The position numbers and the translations under genes were made by a program. From contig NZ_CP007201.1 of NCBI RefSeq assembly GCF_000568815.1, positions 62,001 to 126,000 of the forward strand: 64,000 nt of DNA, read 5' to 3'. The notes under the pieces are model-generated. The model was given only the letters and a program-made list of their open reading frames with translations, did no database searches and was not told the origin of the DNA. Shown here piece by piece: positions 3,248 through 9,819 of the stretch (its first letter is position 1; each line of letters opens with the position of its first letter). This stretch comes from Sulfurospirillum multivorans DSM 12446. GTDB lineage: Bacteria; Campylobacterota; Campylobacteria; Campylobacterales; Sulfurospirillaceae.

Positions 3248-4564
3248 ATGGCACAAAGGGGAATTTGTGAATACGATGGCAAAGCTATTTTTTCGAAACA
3301 TTGGGGAAAATACTTTAGCGGATTTCACTATGGATTTAGATCGGTCTCAGTTAGCAGTGGCGATGCGTTGCGCACAAAAGCCAATGAGCATGGTTTTGAG
3401 TGGCTCAAACAAGTGCCTTTGGTTGCAAAGCCCGATATGCTCTTTGGTAAACGTGGCAAAAATAACCTCGTTTTATACAAAACAAAAAAAGTAGGCGATG
3501 TGACGCTTGAAGATGCGGCAGCTTGGATTGATGAGAAGATTTCGTATAAGACGATTCTTCTCTCAGGTCAAAAAGGCACGTTAAATCGCTTTATTGTAGA
3601 GCCATTTACGCCACACAGCGAAGATCAAGAGTATTACATTAGTGCCACAACGGTGGGGGAGGATGATGTACTGTACCTCTCTGCTGAGGGTGGAATGGAA
3701 GTGGAAGAGGGATGGGAGAGTAAGGTAAATGAGGTGGTGGTTCCTATCATGATGGATGAAGCCAACATCTCGCATCTGATTCGAGCCAATGTGCCTGAGG
3801 GCATTCCCGCTGAAAATAAAGAGCGATTTATCACATTTGCAGAGCAGTTTTATACCTTTTATCGTGATATGAATTTTGCGTATCTTGAGATCAATCCTAT
3901 CGTAATGATTGGCAATGACATGCACATTATGGATGTGGTGGCACGGTTGGATGATACGGCGGGATTTATGATGAAAGAGGATTGGTGTGGTGCAGAATTT
4001 CCAACCGCTTTTGGTATGGAAGACCAATCCACAGAAGAAAAAGCCATTGCTGATGCGGACGCTAAATCGGGAGCTTCCTTGAAACTGATCGTGCTCAATC
4101 CTATGGGGCGCATCTGGACGATGGTTGCAGGGGGTGGTGCTTCGGTGGTGTATGCCGACACGATTGCTGATTTGAGTGGTAACGTGAGCGATTTGGCAAA
4201 TTATGGCGAGTATTCAGGTGGCCCTACCACGGATGAAACACGCTTTTACGCTGAAACGGTTTTGGATTTGATGACCCGTCATAAAGACCCAAAAGGGCGC
4301 GATAAAATTTTAATTATCGGAGGTGCCATTGCCAATTTTACGGACGTAGCTAAGACGTTTACCGGCATTATCCAAGCCCTTGAGGTGTACGCCGATAAAA
4401 TGAAAACGATTGGTACACGCATCTATGTAAGGCGTGGCGGGCCTAATTATGAAAAGGGTTTAAAAGAGATCAAAGAAGCGGCGGATCGTTTGGGTCTTTC
4501 TATCGAAGTTTACGGACCTCAAACCCATATCACGGATATCGTGCGTATGGCACTTGAACACTAA
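3248..4564 (+). CDS. aclB: ATP-citrate lyase small subunit AclB
   Basis: The 438-residue protein corresponds to the citrate/ATP-grasp (succinyl-CoA synthetase beta-like) half of ATP-citrate lyase, which cleaves citrate with CoA and ATP to acetyl-CoA and oxaloacetate. The N-terminus (AQRGICEYDGKAIF) and the Gly-rich segment MVAGGGASVVYADTIADL (~295-313) are typical of prokaryotic two-subunit enzymes, as is DETRFYAETVLDLM. An AGGAG lies at about 3234. AclA follows after 10 bases. ATP-citrate lyase is a hallmark of the reductive TCA cycle in autotrophic campylobacterotes such as Sulfurimonas. Confidence 0.93.
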   Translation: MAQRGICEYDGKAIFSKHWGKYFSGFHYGFRSVSVSSGDALRTKANEHGFEWLKQVPLVAKPDMLFGKRGKNNLVLYKTKKVGDVTLEDAAAWIDEKISYKTILLSGQKGTLNRFIVEPFTPHSEDQEYYISATTVGEDDVLYLSAEGGMEVEEGWESKVNEVVVPIMMDEANISHLIRANVPEGIPAENKERFITFAEQFYTFYRDMNFAYLEINPIVMIGNDMHIMDVVARLDDTAGFMMKEDWCGAEFPTAFGMEDQSTEEKAIADADAKSGASLKLIVLNPMGRIWTMVAGGGASVVYADTIADLSGNVSDLANYGEYSGGPTTDETRFYAETVLDLMTRHKDPKGRDKILIIGGAIANFTDVAKTFTGIIQALEVYADKMKTIGTRIYVRRGGPNYEKGLKEIKEAADRLGLSIEVYGPQTHITDIVRMALEH

Positions 4565-4574
4565 GGAGACAAAG

Positions 4575-6392
4575 ATGAGCGCTTTATTTACCCAAGAGAC
4601 ACAGGCCATTTTTTGGAATCTCAATACCAGTGCTATTCAAAGAATGCTTGATTATGATTACAGTGTCAATCGCATGAAGCCCTCTGTGGCGGCGATTGTA
4701 GCACCTACATCCAACAACAAATTTGAAAAGTTTTTTTACGGTGCTGATGAGATTATGGTGCCAATTTTTAGAAACACTATTGATGCCGCAAATGCCTATC
4801 CGCAAGCAGATATATTGCTTAATTTTGCTTCGTTTCGTACCGCGTATGACGTAACGATGGAGGCGATTGGTATCCGAGGGCATTTTAGGATGATTATGGT
4901 CACAGCAGAGGGCATTCCTGAGAGGCTTGCTCGAAAGATGAACCAAGCAGGGCGTGATGCAGGCGTTGTGATTATAGGACCTGCTACGGTGGGTGGCATC
5001 GCTCCGGGGGCATTTAAAATCGCCAATATCGGGGGAACGATTGAGAATATCATCGCTTCAAAGCTGCATCGAGGAGGTTCATGCGGACTTGTGACCCGTT
5101 CAGGTGGGCTTTTTAACGAGCTTGGCAATATTATTGCGATGCACGCGGATGGTATTGCTGAGGGCATTGCTATTGGTGGAGATCGTTTTGTTGGCTCTGT
5201 TTTTATCGACAATCTTCTTCGCATGGAAGACAATCCCAATGTCAAATACTTGGTGCTTCTAGGCGAAGTGGGAGGATTGGAAGAGTATAAAGTCATCGAG
5301 GCGGTCAAATCAGGTCGCATCAAAAAGCCTGTAATTGCGTGGTGTATCGGAACGATTGCGAAGTATTTTAGCTCAGGCGTGCAGTTTGGACATGCGGGGG
5401 CTTCTGCTAATGCGGATGCTGAAACGGCAGGGGCTAAAAACAAAGCGATGGCAGAAGCTGGCTTACATGTACCAGCAAGTTTTAATGATTTGCCACATAC
5501 CATTGCTAAAGTCTATACCATGCTTTGCGAGCAAGGTGTGATTGAAAAAATCATCGAGCCTGAGCTTAGAATCATCCCTAAAATCCGTCGAGGAAAAGAG
5601 TTTATCTGTACGATTTCAGACGACAGGGGCGATGAAGCGACCTATGCAGGCTATCCTATTAGCTCTTTAGCAACGCCTGAAACGGGCTTTGGCATTGGTG
5701 ATGTGATTGCGCTTTTATGGTTTAAAAAACGCTACCCCAAATGGGCAACGGATTATATTGAAACCGTTTTAAAGACGGTTGCGGATCATGGTCCTGCTGT
5801 TTCTGGAGCGCACAATGCCAAGGTAACTGCACGCGCAGGAAAAGACATGGTAAGCTCACTTGTGAGCGGTCTTTTAACCATAGGTCCTCGCTTTGGTGGG
5901 GCGATTGATGATGCGGCACGCTATTTTAAATACGCAAACGATAACACGATGAGTGCCAGTGAGTTTTTGGACTATATGAAAAAAGAGGGTAAAACGATCT
6001 CAGGCATTGGTCATCGTGTCAAGTCGGTACGCAATCCCGATTTGCGGGTCTCAGGCTTGAAAAAGTACGCAAAAGCGCATTTTCCGCAGACTTCATTGCT
6101 TGAATTTGCCCTAGAGGTCGAGGCGATAACGACCTCTAAAAAAGACAATCTCATCTTAAATGTTGATGGAACCATCGGTGTTTTGATGGTTGATATGTGG
6201 CGTTCACTAGGGTATGCGGAGCATGAAATCGATAATTTTATCGAAGCAGGAACACTCAATGCGCTGTTTGTTTTGGGACGATCCATTGGATTTATAGGGC
6301 ACATCTTGGATGAAAAACGCCTTGGAATGCCGATGTATCGCCATCCAACGGATGATATTTTGTACAACGTAGCGCTTGCAGACGAGATCTAA
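4575..6392 (+). CDS. aclA: ATP-citrate lyase large subunit AclA
   Basis: The 605-residue subunit joins a succinyl-CoA synthetase alpha-like half to a citrate-synthase/citryl-CoA-lyase-like half. The phosphohistidine site is in FGHAGA (~272-277). The C-terminal half shows GPAVSGAHNAKVTARAG (~405) and GIGHRVKSVRNPD (~478), which resemble the citrate synthase active site. I start at 4575 because GGAG (4565-4568) is spaced correctly; an upstream in-frame ATG at 4554 overlaps the end of aclB and lacks a site. AclA and AclB form the complete enzyme in the cytoplasm. A stem-loop follows the stop. Confidence 0.93.
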   Translation: MSALFTQETQAIFWNLNTSAIQRMLDYDYSVNRMKPSVAAIVAPTSNNKFEKFFYGADEIMVPIFRNTIDAANAYPQADILLNFASFRTAYDVTMEAIGIRGHFRMIMVTAEGIPERLARKMNQAGRDAGVVIIGPATVGGIAPGAFKIANIGGTIENIIASKLHRGGSCGLVTRSGGLFNELGNIIAMHADGIAEGIAIGGDRFVGSVFIDNLLRMEDNPNVKYLVLLGEVGGLEEYKVIEAVKSGRIKKPVIAWCIGTIAKYFSSGVQFGHAGASANADAETAGAKNKAMAEAGLHVPASFNDLPHTIAKVYTMLCEQGVIEKIIEPELRIIPKIRRGKEFICTISDDRGDEATYAGYPISSLATPETGFGIGDVIALLWFKKRYPKWATDYIETVLKTVADHGPAVSGAHNAKVTARAGKDMVSSLVSGLLTIGPRFGGAIDDAARYFKYANDNTMSASEFLDYMKKEGKTISGIGHRVKSVRNPDLRVSGLKKYAKAHFPQTSLLEFALEVEAITTSKKDNLILNVDGTIGVLMVDMWRSLGYAEHEIDNFIEAGTLNALFVLGRSIGFIGHILDEKRLGMPMYRHPTDDILYNVALADEI

Positions 6393-6738: not shown

Positions 6739-7353
6739 TTACTGCTTGCGTGCGGTGAGTAAAAAGATGGGGTAGTCTCCATAAGGTTTTTTCGCCACGC
6801 TGACAATTTCGATAGAGACATCCTCAAATCCTGCATTTTGAGCCCAAGTAGCAAACACTTCTTGGTCAAAACCAAAGTGAAACACGCCCATATCTTCGGT
6901 GTGAAAACTGCCATCTTCTTTGTCCAAATCCGCCAGCGCAATGGTACCTCCACGGTTGAGCAAGCGATGAAATTTGTGAAAGAGGGCTTGTACATCTTCG
7001 ACATGGTGAATCGTCATCGAAGAGATGATACCATCAAAGTTCTCATCCAGCTCGCTACTGACCAAGTCAAGCTCTAACATGTTCAGCTCACACCCGAGTT
7101 GCTCTTTCTTGGCACGAAGCGCTTCGTTCATCGAAGGAGAAATATCAATGGTGGTCATTTTGCGCACAAAGGGAGCGATCTGTTCGGTCAAAAGCCCTGT
7201 GCCTGAGCCAAAATCCATCACATGGGTTGTCGTTTTATCATACGTTAGTCTCTCTAAAATAGCTTCACCAATGTTTTTGACGTTGTTGGTGCGCGCAGCT
7301 TCTTTTTCATACTGTTTTGATTTTTCATGAAAATAATCTTTTTTAGGTTGCAT
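6739..7353 (-). CDS. Class I SAM-dependent methyltransferase
   Basis: The 204-residue Methyltransf_11/25-type protein has the SAM motif I VMDFGSGTGLL (about residues 46-56), an acidic residue after strand 2 (TIDIS), and the post-motif segment IISSMTIHHVED. The substrate is unknown. I start at MQPKKDYF (7353), preceded by an AAAGG-like site; an upstream ATG at 7419 would add a basic, unconserved-looking stretch overlapping the neighbour. It lies 74 bases after the Memo gene and may be the last cistron of that operon. Confidence 0.75.
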   Translation of the reverse strand: MQPKKDYFHEKSKQYEKEAARTNNVKNIGEAILERLTYDKTTTHVMDFGSGTGLLTEQIAPFVRKMTTIDISPSMNEALRAKKEQLGCELNMLELDLVSSELDENFDGIISSMTIHHVEDVQALFHKFHRLLNRGGTIALADLDKEDGSFHTEDMGVFHFGFDQEVFATWAQNAGFEDVSIEIVSVAKKPYGDYPIFLLTARKQ

Positions 7354-7427
7354 TAATAGCCTTTGAGTGTGAATGCGAAAGTATAACACAGGCCGTCGAG
7401 GAAGAAAATTAATGCACACAACTAACC

Positions 7428-8222
7428 TTATCCCAGCACAAACGAGGCATAACCGACCACGCGACTCGCATCGTTACTGCGTGCAAAACTTGTGCGGTAA
7501 TCTAAAAAATGGGCTTGAAAATTGCGTGTAAGTGCGCTTTGAACCATTGCTTTTACGCCTGTTATGCCACACGCTTCACAGCCGTGCGTTAGGGCGTGAA
7601 GATCAAGATGTGAGATAGCATCGATGCAAGCCTGATCAAGCGCATTGGCTTCCTCTTCGGTGTAAAAATGACTCAGATCAGTGCTGATGACCAGAAGTGT
7701 TTTTTCATCTTTGAGTAGCGCATCGATCAAGCGAGAGAGTTCTCCAGAGGTAACGTCGCCATAGACGATTTCAACGACTTTGGCGTGTTTAAAGTAGTGG
7801 CGAATCAAGGGCATCTGCACTTCGGTGGAGTGCTCTTCGTGTGCGAGCGGGTTGAAGCTTAGAAAAGCGAACTGTTTTTCAAGCGCATGGCTGAGTTCGA
7901 GGTCTATTTCGATTTCACCGCACGGTGTGTGATAGCTCTCAAACAAGGCGATGGACGCACCCGCAATGTAGATACGATGACTTGGCCCTAGCACGACCAC
8001 ACGCTCGATGTCGGAGCGTTTTGAAGCGGTGTAGTGATAGGCAAGATTGGCGGTGTATCCGCTGTAAATGTAGCCTGCGTGGGGCACGATGAGTGCGCGA
8101 GGCAGGACATCCAGTTCCAACGGAGGCATTGCTTTAGTAAAATGGTCGATAAAGTGTTTGATCTCACTGCAGTTATCGGGATAAAACATGCCTGCAACGG
8201 CACTTTTTCGGTGTTTATTCAT
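7428..8222 (-). CDS. amrB: AmmeMemoRadiSam system protein B (Memo family)
   Basis: The 264-residue Memo-family protein is related to extradiol dioxygenase LigB-like folds. Conserved metal-type histidines are visible in VPHAGYIYSG (~46), GPSHR (~80), HSTEVQMPL and STDLSHF. Its biochemical role is unsettled; in humans MEMO1 is a redox and metal-binding protein. I start at MNKHRKSAVAGMFYP (8222), where ATG overlaps the stop of the upstream radical SAM gene by 8 bases, implying translational coupling. An alternative ATG at 8267 lies deep inside that gene. It is the third gene of the amrA-amrS-amrB set. Confidence 0.9.
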   Translation of the reverse strand: MNKHRKSAVAGMFYPDNCSEIKHFIDHFTKAMPPLELDVLPRALIVPHAGYIYSGYTANLAYHYTASKRSDIERVVVLGPSHRIYIAGASIALFESYHTPCGEIEIDLELSHALEKQFAFLSFNPLAHEEHSTEVQMPLIRHYFKHAKVVEIVYGDVTSGELSRLIDALLKDEKTLLVISTDLSHFYTEEEANALDQACIDAISHLDLHALTHGCEACGITGVKAMVQSALTRNFQAHFLDYRTSFARSNDASRVVGYASFVLG

Positions 8223-9207
8223 CAAAAACTCCTGCGAGTTTGGTTTTACATGTAGGACAGCGCGCATCTTTGATCAGATGGTTTTCCATCACATCAAAGC
8301 GGTAGCGCTTAATCAAAACCGCGTTACATGTAACGCACCGTGTTGGGTTCTCAAGTCCGGCATTGCCGATGTAGATGTGTTTGAGCCCTGCTTCTTTGCC
8401 GAGCGTTTCGGCGCGTTTGAGCGTCTCTATCGGTGTGGCGGAAAGAGAAAGTTCGTGGTAATCGGGATGAAACGCGCTGATATGCCACGGCGTCTCTTCT
8501 CCCAACTCTTTGGCAATAAACGAAGCGATGGCGCCTAGCTCTGCGTCTGAGTCGTTTTTTGATGGAATGATCAGCGTGGTCACTTCGACCCAAATGCCGT
8601 TACGCTTGAAATGTTTGAGGGTTTCTAAAACCGTTTCAAGCCCTCCTCCAAGCTCTTTTTTGTAGTAGTCGTGGTTGAATGATTTTAGATCGACATTTGC
8701 CGCGTCGATGATGCCTTTCATGTCGTCAAGCACTTCGGATGATTCAAAACCGTTCGTAACGAAGATATTTTTGATGCCTCGTTCATGCGCCAAAAGAGCG
8801 ATATCATGGGCGTATGGGTAAAAAATGGTTGGTTCATTGTAGGTGTAGGCGATGGAGGCACATTCGTATTTGAGCGCCATCTCTACGATTTGCTCTGGGG
8901 TAATAAACTCTTTTACATGTAACTTTTTTTCTTGGGAAATACTCCAATTTTGACAAAAAGGACAGACGAAGTTACAGCCAATGGTTCCTAAGGAGAGCGC
9001 TCGGGTGTCGGGTAAAAAATGGTACAGCGGTTTTTTCTCAACAGGGTCAACATACAACGCCACAGGAAAGCCGTACACCAGATTTTTGATGGCGCCGTCT
9101 ACGTTTTTATTGACACCACAGATGCCGCTTTGTCCCTCTTTGAGGTGGCAGTAATGTGCGCAGAGCAAGCAAACTAAACGTGAACCTTCCGTTTTAAAGT
9201 AGTTCAT
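8215..9207 (-). CDS. amrS: AmmeMemoRadiSam system radical SAM enzyme
   Basis: The 330-residue radical SAM protein binds a 4Fe-4S cluster through CNFVCPFC (about residues 79-86). An N-terminal Cys cluster (CLLCAHYC and GICG, residues ~13-32) and a C-terminal CVTC/CPTC pair look like extra zinc or iron-sulfur sites. The family resembles PFL-activase-like enzymes but its substrate is not established. The ATG overlaps the amrA stop (TAATG) and its own stop overlaps the amrB start, so the three proteins are probably made in fixed ratio. Confidence 0.92.
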   Translation of the reverse strand: MNYFKTEGSRLVCLLCAHYCHLKEGQSGICGVNKNVDGAIKNLVYGFPVALYVDPVEKKPLYHFLPDTRALSLGTIGCNFVCPFCQNWSISQEKKLHVKEFITPEQIVEMALKYECASIAYTYNEPTIFYPYAHDIALLAHERGIKNIFVTNGFESSEVLDDMKGIIDAANVDLKSFNHDYYKKELGGGLETVLETLKHFKRNGIWVEVTTLIIPSKNDSDAELGAIASFIAKELGEETPWHISAFHPDYHELSLSATPIETLKRAETLGKEAGLKHIYIGNAGLENPTRCVTCNAVLIKRYRFDVMENHLIKDARCPTCKTKLAGVFDE

Positions 9208-9749
9208 TATTTCACCTTTTTAACCCTGTAACGTGAAATGTCAGGATGGCTTTCTAAGCAATGTGCGTCCAGTCCTGCTTTTTGGCAGAGATGGGAAAAA
9301 AAGAGTTCAAACGTAGGCAGTTGCTCCCAAACTTGGGGTAAAAAAGTCGCTTTTCGCGCCCCTTTTTGAAGAATAATGCCATCTTCTCCCACGGTAATTT
9401 TGGATTTGAGATCGGTTGTATCGCTGTATTCCACGCTTTCTGGCGCACTTAAAAGCGAGACTTCAATGCTTACATGTAAAAACTCTTCAGAACTGAGTGG
9501 ATAAAAACGTGGGTCATCAAACGCGGCGGCTTTGGCGTTGTAAATGAGGTCGTCCAAAAAGGGTCGATGCGCGATAAGTGAGCCGATGCAGCCACGAAGC
9601 TGACCATCAAGAGTAAGCGTTACAAAGGTCGCTTTGGGTTTGGAAAATTCAGGGTAGTGTTTCAGAAGGGCGTTTGTATCGATAGTCGAAGTGTGCTCCA
9701 AGCCGTCTTTGATGGCTTGTTTTGCAATAGATAGGATCACGTTTTGCAT
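9207..9749 (-). CDS. amrA: AmmeMemoRadiSam system protein A (AMMECR1 domain)
   Basis: The 180-residue protein carries the hallmark hexapeptide LRGCIG at about residues 51-56, with downstream family segments DPRF and GEDGIIL. The function of AMMECR1 proteins is unknown; joint occurrence with Memo and a radical SAM enzyme in archaea and bacteria is well established and suggests a shared modification pathway. It is the first gene of the leftward operon. AAGGAG lies upstream of ATG 9749. The 70-bp region to the divergent gene at 9820 must hold promoters in both directions. Confidence 0.92.
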   Translation of the reverse strand: MQNVILSIAKQAIKDGLEHTSTIDTNALLKHYPEFSKPKATFVTLTLDGQLRGCIGSLIAHRPFLDDLIYNAKAAAFDDPRFYPLSSEEFLHVSIEVSLLSAPESVEYSDTTDLKSKITVGEDGIILQKGARKATFLPQVWEQLPTFELFFSHLCQKAGLDAHCLESHPDISRYRVKKVK

Positions 9750-9819
9750 GGTATCTCCTTGTGGGAGCTTTATTATATGATAAAATGGCTGATAGGTTAT
9801 AGCTCAAGGAGTCTTTAGG

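Follow-up and report, generated by a model that had tools for sequence, protein, structure and literature searches.

The AmmeMemoRadiSam operon of Sulfurospirillum multivorans and its apparently independent methyltransferase neighbour

Results

Identity and layout of the cassette

We studied a minus-strand gene cassette encoding AMMECR1, a radical S-adenosylmethionine (SAM) enzyme and Memo, followed by a methyltransferase gene, in the genome of Sulfurospirillum multivorans DSM 12446 (Table 1). The genome is a single contig of 3,175,729 bases, and the window analysed is the 64,000-nucleotide stretch at its positions 62001-126000. The locus is probably an ordinary AmmeMemoRadiSam operon, predicted to be a single transcription unit with coupled translation, beside an unrelated downstream methyltransferase gene with its own predicted promoter. 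All three cassette proteins score above the curated NCBIfam cut-offs for AmmeMemoRadiSam, so the cassette is of a known kind: AMMECR1 scores 194 bits against a cut-off of 99 (TIGR04335), the radical SAM protein 361.3 against 220 (TIGR04337) and Memo 253.4 against 26 (TIGR04336), with PF01871 and PF01875 also matched by AMMECR1 and Memo. The cassette agrees with that system in scores, in radical SAM cysteine motifs and in co-occurrence across genomes, and we found no difference within it; the neighbouring methyltransferase falls outside the three families. The latter matches Pfam Methyltransf_11, Methyltransf_23 and Methyltransf_25, and among its NCBIfam matches listed (25 of 31) none was above the cut-off.

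The first-pass annotation, made from the sequence alone, had described a three-gene cassette of co-occurring proteins, which these scores and the genome counts below bear out. It had also described the gene junctions exactly: AMMECR1 and the radical SAM gene meet in TAATG, a 1-bp overlap at 9207, and the radical SAM and Memo genes overlap by 8 bp. Its added SAM methyltransferase does come next after the cassette, but across a 74-bp gap, in contrast to the overlapping cassette genes. Two starts used here differ from the open reading frame (ORF) listing: Memo is taken from the homologous start at 8222 rather than 8267, and the methyltransferase from the ATG at 7353 rather than 7419. Membership of a defence system was considered and rejected: the PADLOC output was limited to a radical SAM match of viperin-like type at 27.3 bits and a mad2 match to a methyltransferase domain at 55.7 bits.

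Table 1. Features of the cassette region (window coordinates)
Feature	Position	Strand	Details
Predicted cassette promoter CTATCAGCCATTTTATCATATAAT	9772-9795	-	Last base 23 nt before AMMECR1 ATG; motif only
AMMECR1 (AmmeMemoRadiSam protein A)	9207-9749	-	180 aa ORF; TIGR04335, PF01871
Radical SAM enzyme (AmmeMemoRadiSam rS)	8215-9207	-	330 aa ORF; TIGR04337
Memo start / radical SAM stop overlap ATGAATAA	8215-8222	-	8 bp
Memo (AmmeMemoRadiSam protein B)	7428-8222	-	264 aa, ATG 8222; TIGR04336, PF01875
Extended -10 motif TGTTATACT, predicted methyltransferase promoter	7380-7388	-	TATACT begins 32 nt before ATG
Class I SAM-dependent methyltransferase	6739-7353	-	204 aa, ATG 7353; Pfam match

Linkage and predicted promoters in the genus

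Seventeen cassettes of the genus were available, each within one stretch (the window and L033-L048). The AMMECR1/radical SAM overlap is 1 bp in all 17, and the radical SAM/Memo overlap is 8 bp in 13, 11 bp in one and 14 bp in three. The gap between Memo and the methyltransferase gene, where one stretch contains both, ranges from 24 to 3562 bp (the value for L034 rests on a split Memo gene in a 78%-complete assembly). The methyltransferase gene lies 24-148 bp behind Memo, in the same direction, in 10 cassettes; it is separated by 1261 bp in L037, 2926 bp in L033 and 3562 bp in L046, and the fetched stretch does not contain it in the remaining four (L038, L042, L043 and L045). The first-pass annotation had proposed looking for the methyltransferase beside the cassette in relatives as a check, and this distribution does not sustain its idea of an added cassette member. 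In the nearest relative (L033, genome G017), whose radical SAM protein is 94% identical, an 896-aa ORF carrying HEAT/LRV repeats stands between the cassette and the methyltransferase gene.

Each unit also has a -10 motif of its own. A TATACT with an extended -10 element lies 23-32 nt upstream of the methyltransferase start in 11 of 13 distinct genomes (12 of 14 rows, less L072), and it is present in all three genomes with a relocated gene, that is, it moves with the gene. TATAAT precedes AMMECR1 in 15 of the 17 cassettes. Both motifs are missing in L047 and L048. From these motifs the methyltransferase gene is predicted to be transcribed separately from the cassette. The cassette genes overlap in every case, the methyltransferase linkage is loose and each of the two is preceded by a -10 motif; the cassette therefore looks like a single unit, and the methyltransferase (METHYLTRANSFERASE) like a separate, independent neighbour. 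The first-pass annotation had named two outcomes that would speak against its added methyltransferase; unlinking in close relatives is observed, and separate transcription is predicted from the motif.

If the methyltransferase were nevertheless a genuine fourth member that works on what the cassette produces, its frequent adjacency and shared direction would be explained, as would its distribution in the family, where it is found (E<=1e-20) in 21 of 44 genomes, namely 20 of the 37 with AMMECR1 and one of the seven without. Loci of other groups also have a methyltransferase directly before the radical SAM gene in 11 of 80 cases, but this is a different protein, UbiE-like below the cut-off and only generically similar to that of the window (best BLAST E 0.002). 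At the same threshold the window's methyltransferase is absent from G008, G010, G014, G018 and G020, all of which have the three cassette genes, and its matches in G021 and G025 are merely 36-37% identical. Together with the gene intervening in G017 and the separate -10 motif, these absences led us to reject a fourth component, which we regard as very improbable.

Co-occurrence and loss across genomes

Each of the three cassette genes is found in 37 of the 44 family genomes (counting two short fragments of the radical SAM gene and one weak fragment of Memo), often unlinked. In the single-contig genome G014, AMMECR1 and Memo are neighbours at 32-33 kb and the radical SAM gene is at 620 kb, ~590 kb away; in G010, also a single contig, the radical SAM and Memo genes are neighbours at 1.68 Mb and AMMECR1 is at 692 kb, ~1 Mb away. 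The fixed stoichiometry that the first-pass annotation had read from the gene overlaps is not supported, given such sister lineages and others from which the radical SAM gene is absent.

We surveyed 397 Campylobacterota genomes, at least 90% complete and drawn evenly from a larger set, the relatives among them not being independent. All three genes are present in 131, AMMECR1 and Memo in 15, AMMECR1 only in five, the radical SAM and Memo genes in one (G242), and none in 245. The 131 consist of 130 by tallies plus G340, whose radical SAM loss by the count at E<=1e-60 was refuted: L165 has a radical SAM-Memo ORF broken by a run of unknown bases. When the 21 genomes scored as lacking the radical SAM gene were rechecked at E<=1e-5, it was found in G340 only. 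Ten of the 15 AMMECR1 and Memo genomes are assembled into no more than two contigs, which means that the absence of the radical SAM gene from them is not an assembly gap; one family (f7) accounts for 11 of the 15. In genomes without the radical SAM gene the Memo ligand set HHHDHC is kept in 13 of 13 rows (G379 was left out of the 15, as was G230, L157, whose Memo gene is split), and Cys54 of AMMECR1 in 18 of 19 rows, the AMMECR1-only genomes included. Gene loss in Campylobacterota looks nested, with the radical SAM gene lost first, Memo second and AMMECR1 last.

For other groups we took the best 80 of 590 confirmed radical SAM stretches as loci, and searched the genomes of 48 of these for AMMECR1 and Memo. 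The 32 loci left out were mostly Campylobacterota-like records or short stretches, plus a few without a recorded reason; the 48 are not titled Campylobacterota by their record titles, which can be wrong for assembled metagenomes. ORF picking missed the radical SAM ORF itself in six of the 80 loci, three of them within the 48. AMMECR1 was found in 43 of these 48 radical SAM-bearing genomes and Memo in 47, with both in 43; AMMECR1 was missing (E<=1e-10) in five.

Fusions

Among the 48 outside genomes, 20 have Memo and AMMECR1 as a single ORF (same contig, same open frame), and Campylobacterota have such fusions in both orders (AMMECR1-Memo in L170, Memo-AMMECR1 in L178). A radical SAM-Memo ORF occurs in five Campylobacterota genomes (L165 and L172-L175; L076 and L175 apparently represent one contig). 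No radical SAM-AMMECR1 fusion was seen in the loci examined for neighbours. Memo, fused to either of the other two, is thus the partner common to both kinds of fusion.

Memo and AMMECR1 active sites

Memo residues His48, His82, His131, Asp182, His185 and Cys218 are conserved in 58 of 58 rows. The protein matches the human MEMO1 chain by profile over nearly its full length (E 3e-36), and in this profile alignment His48, His82 and Cys218 fall on H49, H81 and C244 of MEMO1 (the PHAGY, GPSH and CG positions), which excerpts of the MEMO1 study give as its iron ligands (PMC11081632). The three Memo residues are accordingly placed as predicted iron ligands, two His and one Cys as in MEMO1. We know of no radical SAM partner of MEMO1 in humans. 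A difference from the cassette protein is the role in iron homeostasis of cancer cells that the same excerpts report for MEMO1, and they describe MEMO1 as sharing its fold and the position of its iron site with the class III extradiol dioxygenases LigB and DesB (PMC11081632). Those enzymes have Glu as third ligand, whereas MEMO1 and the cassette Memo have Cys; the 2-His-1-carboxylate site is therefore not reproduced in Memo, where Cys218 takes the place of the third ligand.

AMMECR1 has an LRGC motif in which Arg52-Gly53 is invariant; Cys54 (55 of 56 homologues) and Arg81 are nearly so. The sole homologue without Cys54 (L158, genome G240) has Arg81 replaced by Ser too, in a genome without Memo and the radical SAM gene, while the other four AMMECR1-only genomes retain Cys54; loss of both residues alongside both partners is a single case, and so a hint. 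The AMMECR1 model matches the solved structures of its family 1zq7, 1vaj and 1wsc at Z 19.6-20.4, and as the next structural row beyond the family reaches only Z 4.6, the fold gives no conclusion about a substrate. A fusion of AMMECR1 with a SnoaL-like domain was also seen (L187:4052-5131); the genome concerned (G226) additionally has AMMECR1 and Memo as a separate pair (L186).

The radical SAM protein

The radical SAM protein carries Cys78, Cys82 and Cys85 in a CxxxCxxC motif, conserved in all 129 rows of an alignment in which some rows are distant paralogues and at least two repeat a genome already present (L072/L039, L076/L175). Further cysteines stand near the N-terminus (Cys13/16/20/30; 128 of 129 rows, one gap) and the C-terminus (Cys291/294/317/320; 122 of 129, seven gaps). 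The extra cysteine pairs to which the first-pass annotation drew attention are therefore real, but are a trait of the whole family and not particular to this locus. Residues 44-280 of an AlphaFold model (mean pLDDT 78.3) match pyruvate formate-lyase activase with bound peptide (3cb8; Z 22.2, root-mean-square deviation 2.6, 223 residues), and the next structural family is at Z 17.4. Because the match covers residues 44-280, it leaves out both Cys-rich ends, where metal binding is plausible.

Likeness to the pyruvate formate-lyase activating enzyme thus consists of this fold and the CxxxCxxC motif. Glycyl-radical activases give the next-best NCBIfam scores after the protein's own family, but these are far under the cut-offs (46.1 bits against 231.75 for PFLA, TIGR02493; 51.9 against 174.35 for PFLE_PFLC, TIGR02494), and the four-Cys segments at both ends are extra in the cassette protein.

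Three variants of the radical SAM protein were noted in passing. Five sequences from two genera of the family (L055-L059) are ~275 aa and without the C-terminal four-Cys segment, and each of these shortened genes adjoins a small HIT-like gene (HIT named by eye). A second, distant paralogue of ~593 aa (G000:C1:2776388-2777347, plus strand; L069-L071) is fused to a periplasmic-binding-protein-like domain and adjoins bacterial-globin-like, periplasmic binding protein and methyltransferase genes (Pfam from the L070 copy only). In L176 and L177 two radical SAM genes of the AmmeMemoRadiSam type lie side by side as tandem duplicates, and the fetched stretches contain no AMMECR1 or Memo.

Gene contexts in other groups

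In other groups the radical SAM gene mostly stands apart, with AMMECR1 or Memo in the fetched stretch in two of the 48 loci (L120, L126). Neighbours were counted within five genes, and the UbiE-, UbiA- and UbiX-like families were read on L103 only. UbiA is directly behind the radical SAM gene in four of the 80 loci and a UbiX-like gene was counted in three; archease occurs in five loci, RtcB in four and endonuclease III in five. Genes resembling protein-isoaspartate methyltransferase (named by eye) occur in seven of all clustered loci, and recurrent genes in Arcobacter-type AMMECR1/Memo loci are DUF218/ElyC (15 loci) and ferrochelatase (10 loci). The abstract of a 2019 Burroughs paper (J Biol Chem) reportedly names nucleotide base and isoprenoid modification as contexts; those found here resemble both themes and do not decide between them.

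Other features of the window

Two overlapping plus-strand genes at 3248-6392, one an ORF of 438 aa and the other encoding 612 aa with CoA-ligase and citrate-synthase domains, presumably correspond to the two subunits of ATP citrate lyase, which we take as a sign of the reverse citric acid cycle.

The palindrome TTACATGTAA has 29 sites in the window (e.g. 6630, 8324, 8913 and 9470) against 0.12 expected, and 1,484 copies in the 3.18-Mb genome (G000) against two for a reversed-pattern control. Copy numbers are 49 to 1,496 in members of the genus and 6 to 733 in the other genera of the family. Of 156 sites in 21 stretches, 47 fall outside ORFs of at least 100 aa, though such ORFs cover 90% of the bases, and alignable sites are identical in three relatives at 7/7, 5/6 and 3/5. 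The motif is reminiscent of the HIP1 palindrome of cyanobacteria; searching a HIP survey (PMC4390886) for terms naming this group and the motif gave no hit, and the openly licensed papers containing the TTACATGTAA string were, among the matches listed, on other subjects by title.

Discussion

AMMECR1 and Memo occur in archaea, bacteria and humans, and to our knowledge no reaction has been assigned to them. Our reading of the system has Memo as its hub, AMMECR1 as the usual partner and the radical SAM protein as a dispensable extra. Memo would be an Fe(II) oxidoreductase-like protein with a site of two His and one Cys; AMMECR1, in which Arg52-Gly53, Cys54 and Arg81 are conserved as described, would dock on it, and together they would form the core that some genomes keep when the third protein is gone. 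The radical SAM enzyme, with its activase-type fold and Cys-rich ends, would carry out a radical step of its own, either on the same substrate or on one of the core proteins; it is lost in some lineages. More tentatively, and as one possibility that we hold less likely than not, Memo and AMMECR1 would be an ancient two-protein iron enzyme, with Cys54 and Arg81 acting on a substrate passed to or from the Memo iron site. A nucleobase in RNA would be our first guess at the substrate, and a rather uncertain one; an isoprenoid quinone or another metabolite would be the next, held with less confidence. In excerpts of a 2019 review, AMMECR1 is counted in 429 of 524 archaeal genomes and placed among the top-priority uncharacterised archaeal proteins (PMC6393860).

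Two other accounts of the system deserve consideration. The radical SAM protein might be a maturase that modifies Memo or AMMECR1, as an activase does a protein backbone: its core is closest to an activase solved with bound peptide, its second-best family scores are to glycyl-radical activases, and radical SAM-Memo fusions exist. Yet the radical SAM gene is often distant from both Memo and AMMECR1, and the conserved Memo and AMMECR1 residues are retained where it has been lost, so the unmodified Memo-AMMECR1 pair seems useful; we think a maturase unlikely. Alternatively, the system could act in biosynthesis or modification of isoprenoid quinone (menaquinone). L103 and L149 have UbiE-like methyltransferase, radical SAM, MqnP-like UbiA and UbiX-like genes consecutively, the UbiA gene recurs behind the radical SAM gene as described, and isoprenoid modification is said to be among the contexts in the Burroughs abstract. 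However, quinone-type neighbours occur in only a few of the 80 loci and none is beside the window's cassette, and Campylobacterota without the system still need menaquinone as far as is known, which makes a quinone role decidedly unlikely.

Several observations weigh against our own account, both of the locus and of the Memo-AMMECR1 core. We know of no activity of Memo or of the bacterial system. Both predicted promoters are motif matches only, and a consensus promoter scan, which found four promoters against 5.2 expected and hence no excess, listed neither of them; the short distance between Memo and the methyltransferase gene in 10 of 17 genus cassettes would also allow a loose link. Four of the 48 outside genomes have the radical SAM and Memo genes without AMMECR1 (G419, G440, G448 with a weak Memo, and G463), some perhaps being incomplete assemblies, and two control genomes have one gene of the pair only, AMMECR1 in Haloferax volcanii and Memo in Thermus composti. 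Given Memo without AMMECR1 in Thermus and in these four, a strict order of loss is not always valid outside the phylum, and we rate the ancient two-protein enzyme slightly lower on that account. Gene neighbours elsewhere form several contexts, none dominant, and indicate no single substrate. MEMO1 itself was inactive with the standard dioxygenase substrates tried, according to excerpts of that study (PMC11081632).

Operons of this kind are already known; the contributions of the present analysis are the patterns of loss and of fusion and the separate promoter predicted for the methyltransferase gene, none of which we found in print among the openly licensed papers searched. Setting the methyltransferase aside removes a misleading clue. 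Together, the fusions and the pattern of loss point to a simpler assay target, namely the Memo-AMMECR1 pair without the radical SAM protein, taken from bacteria that retain only the pair.

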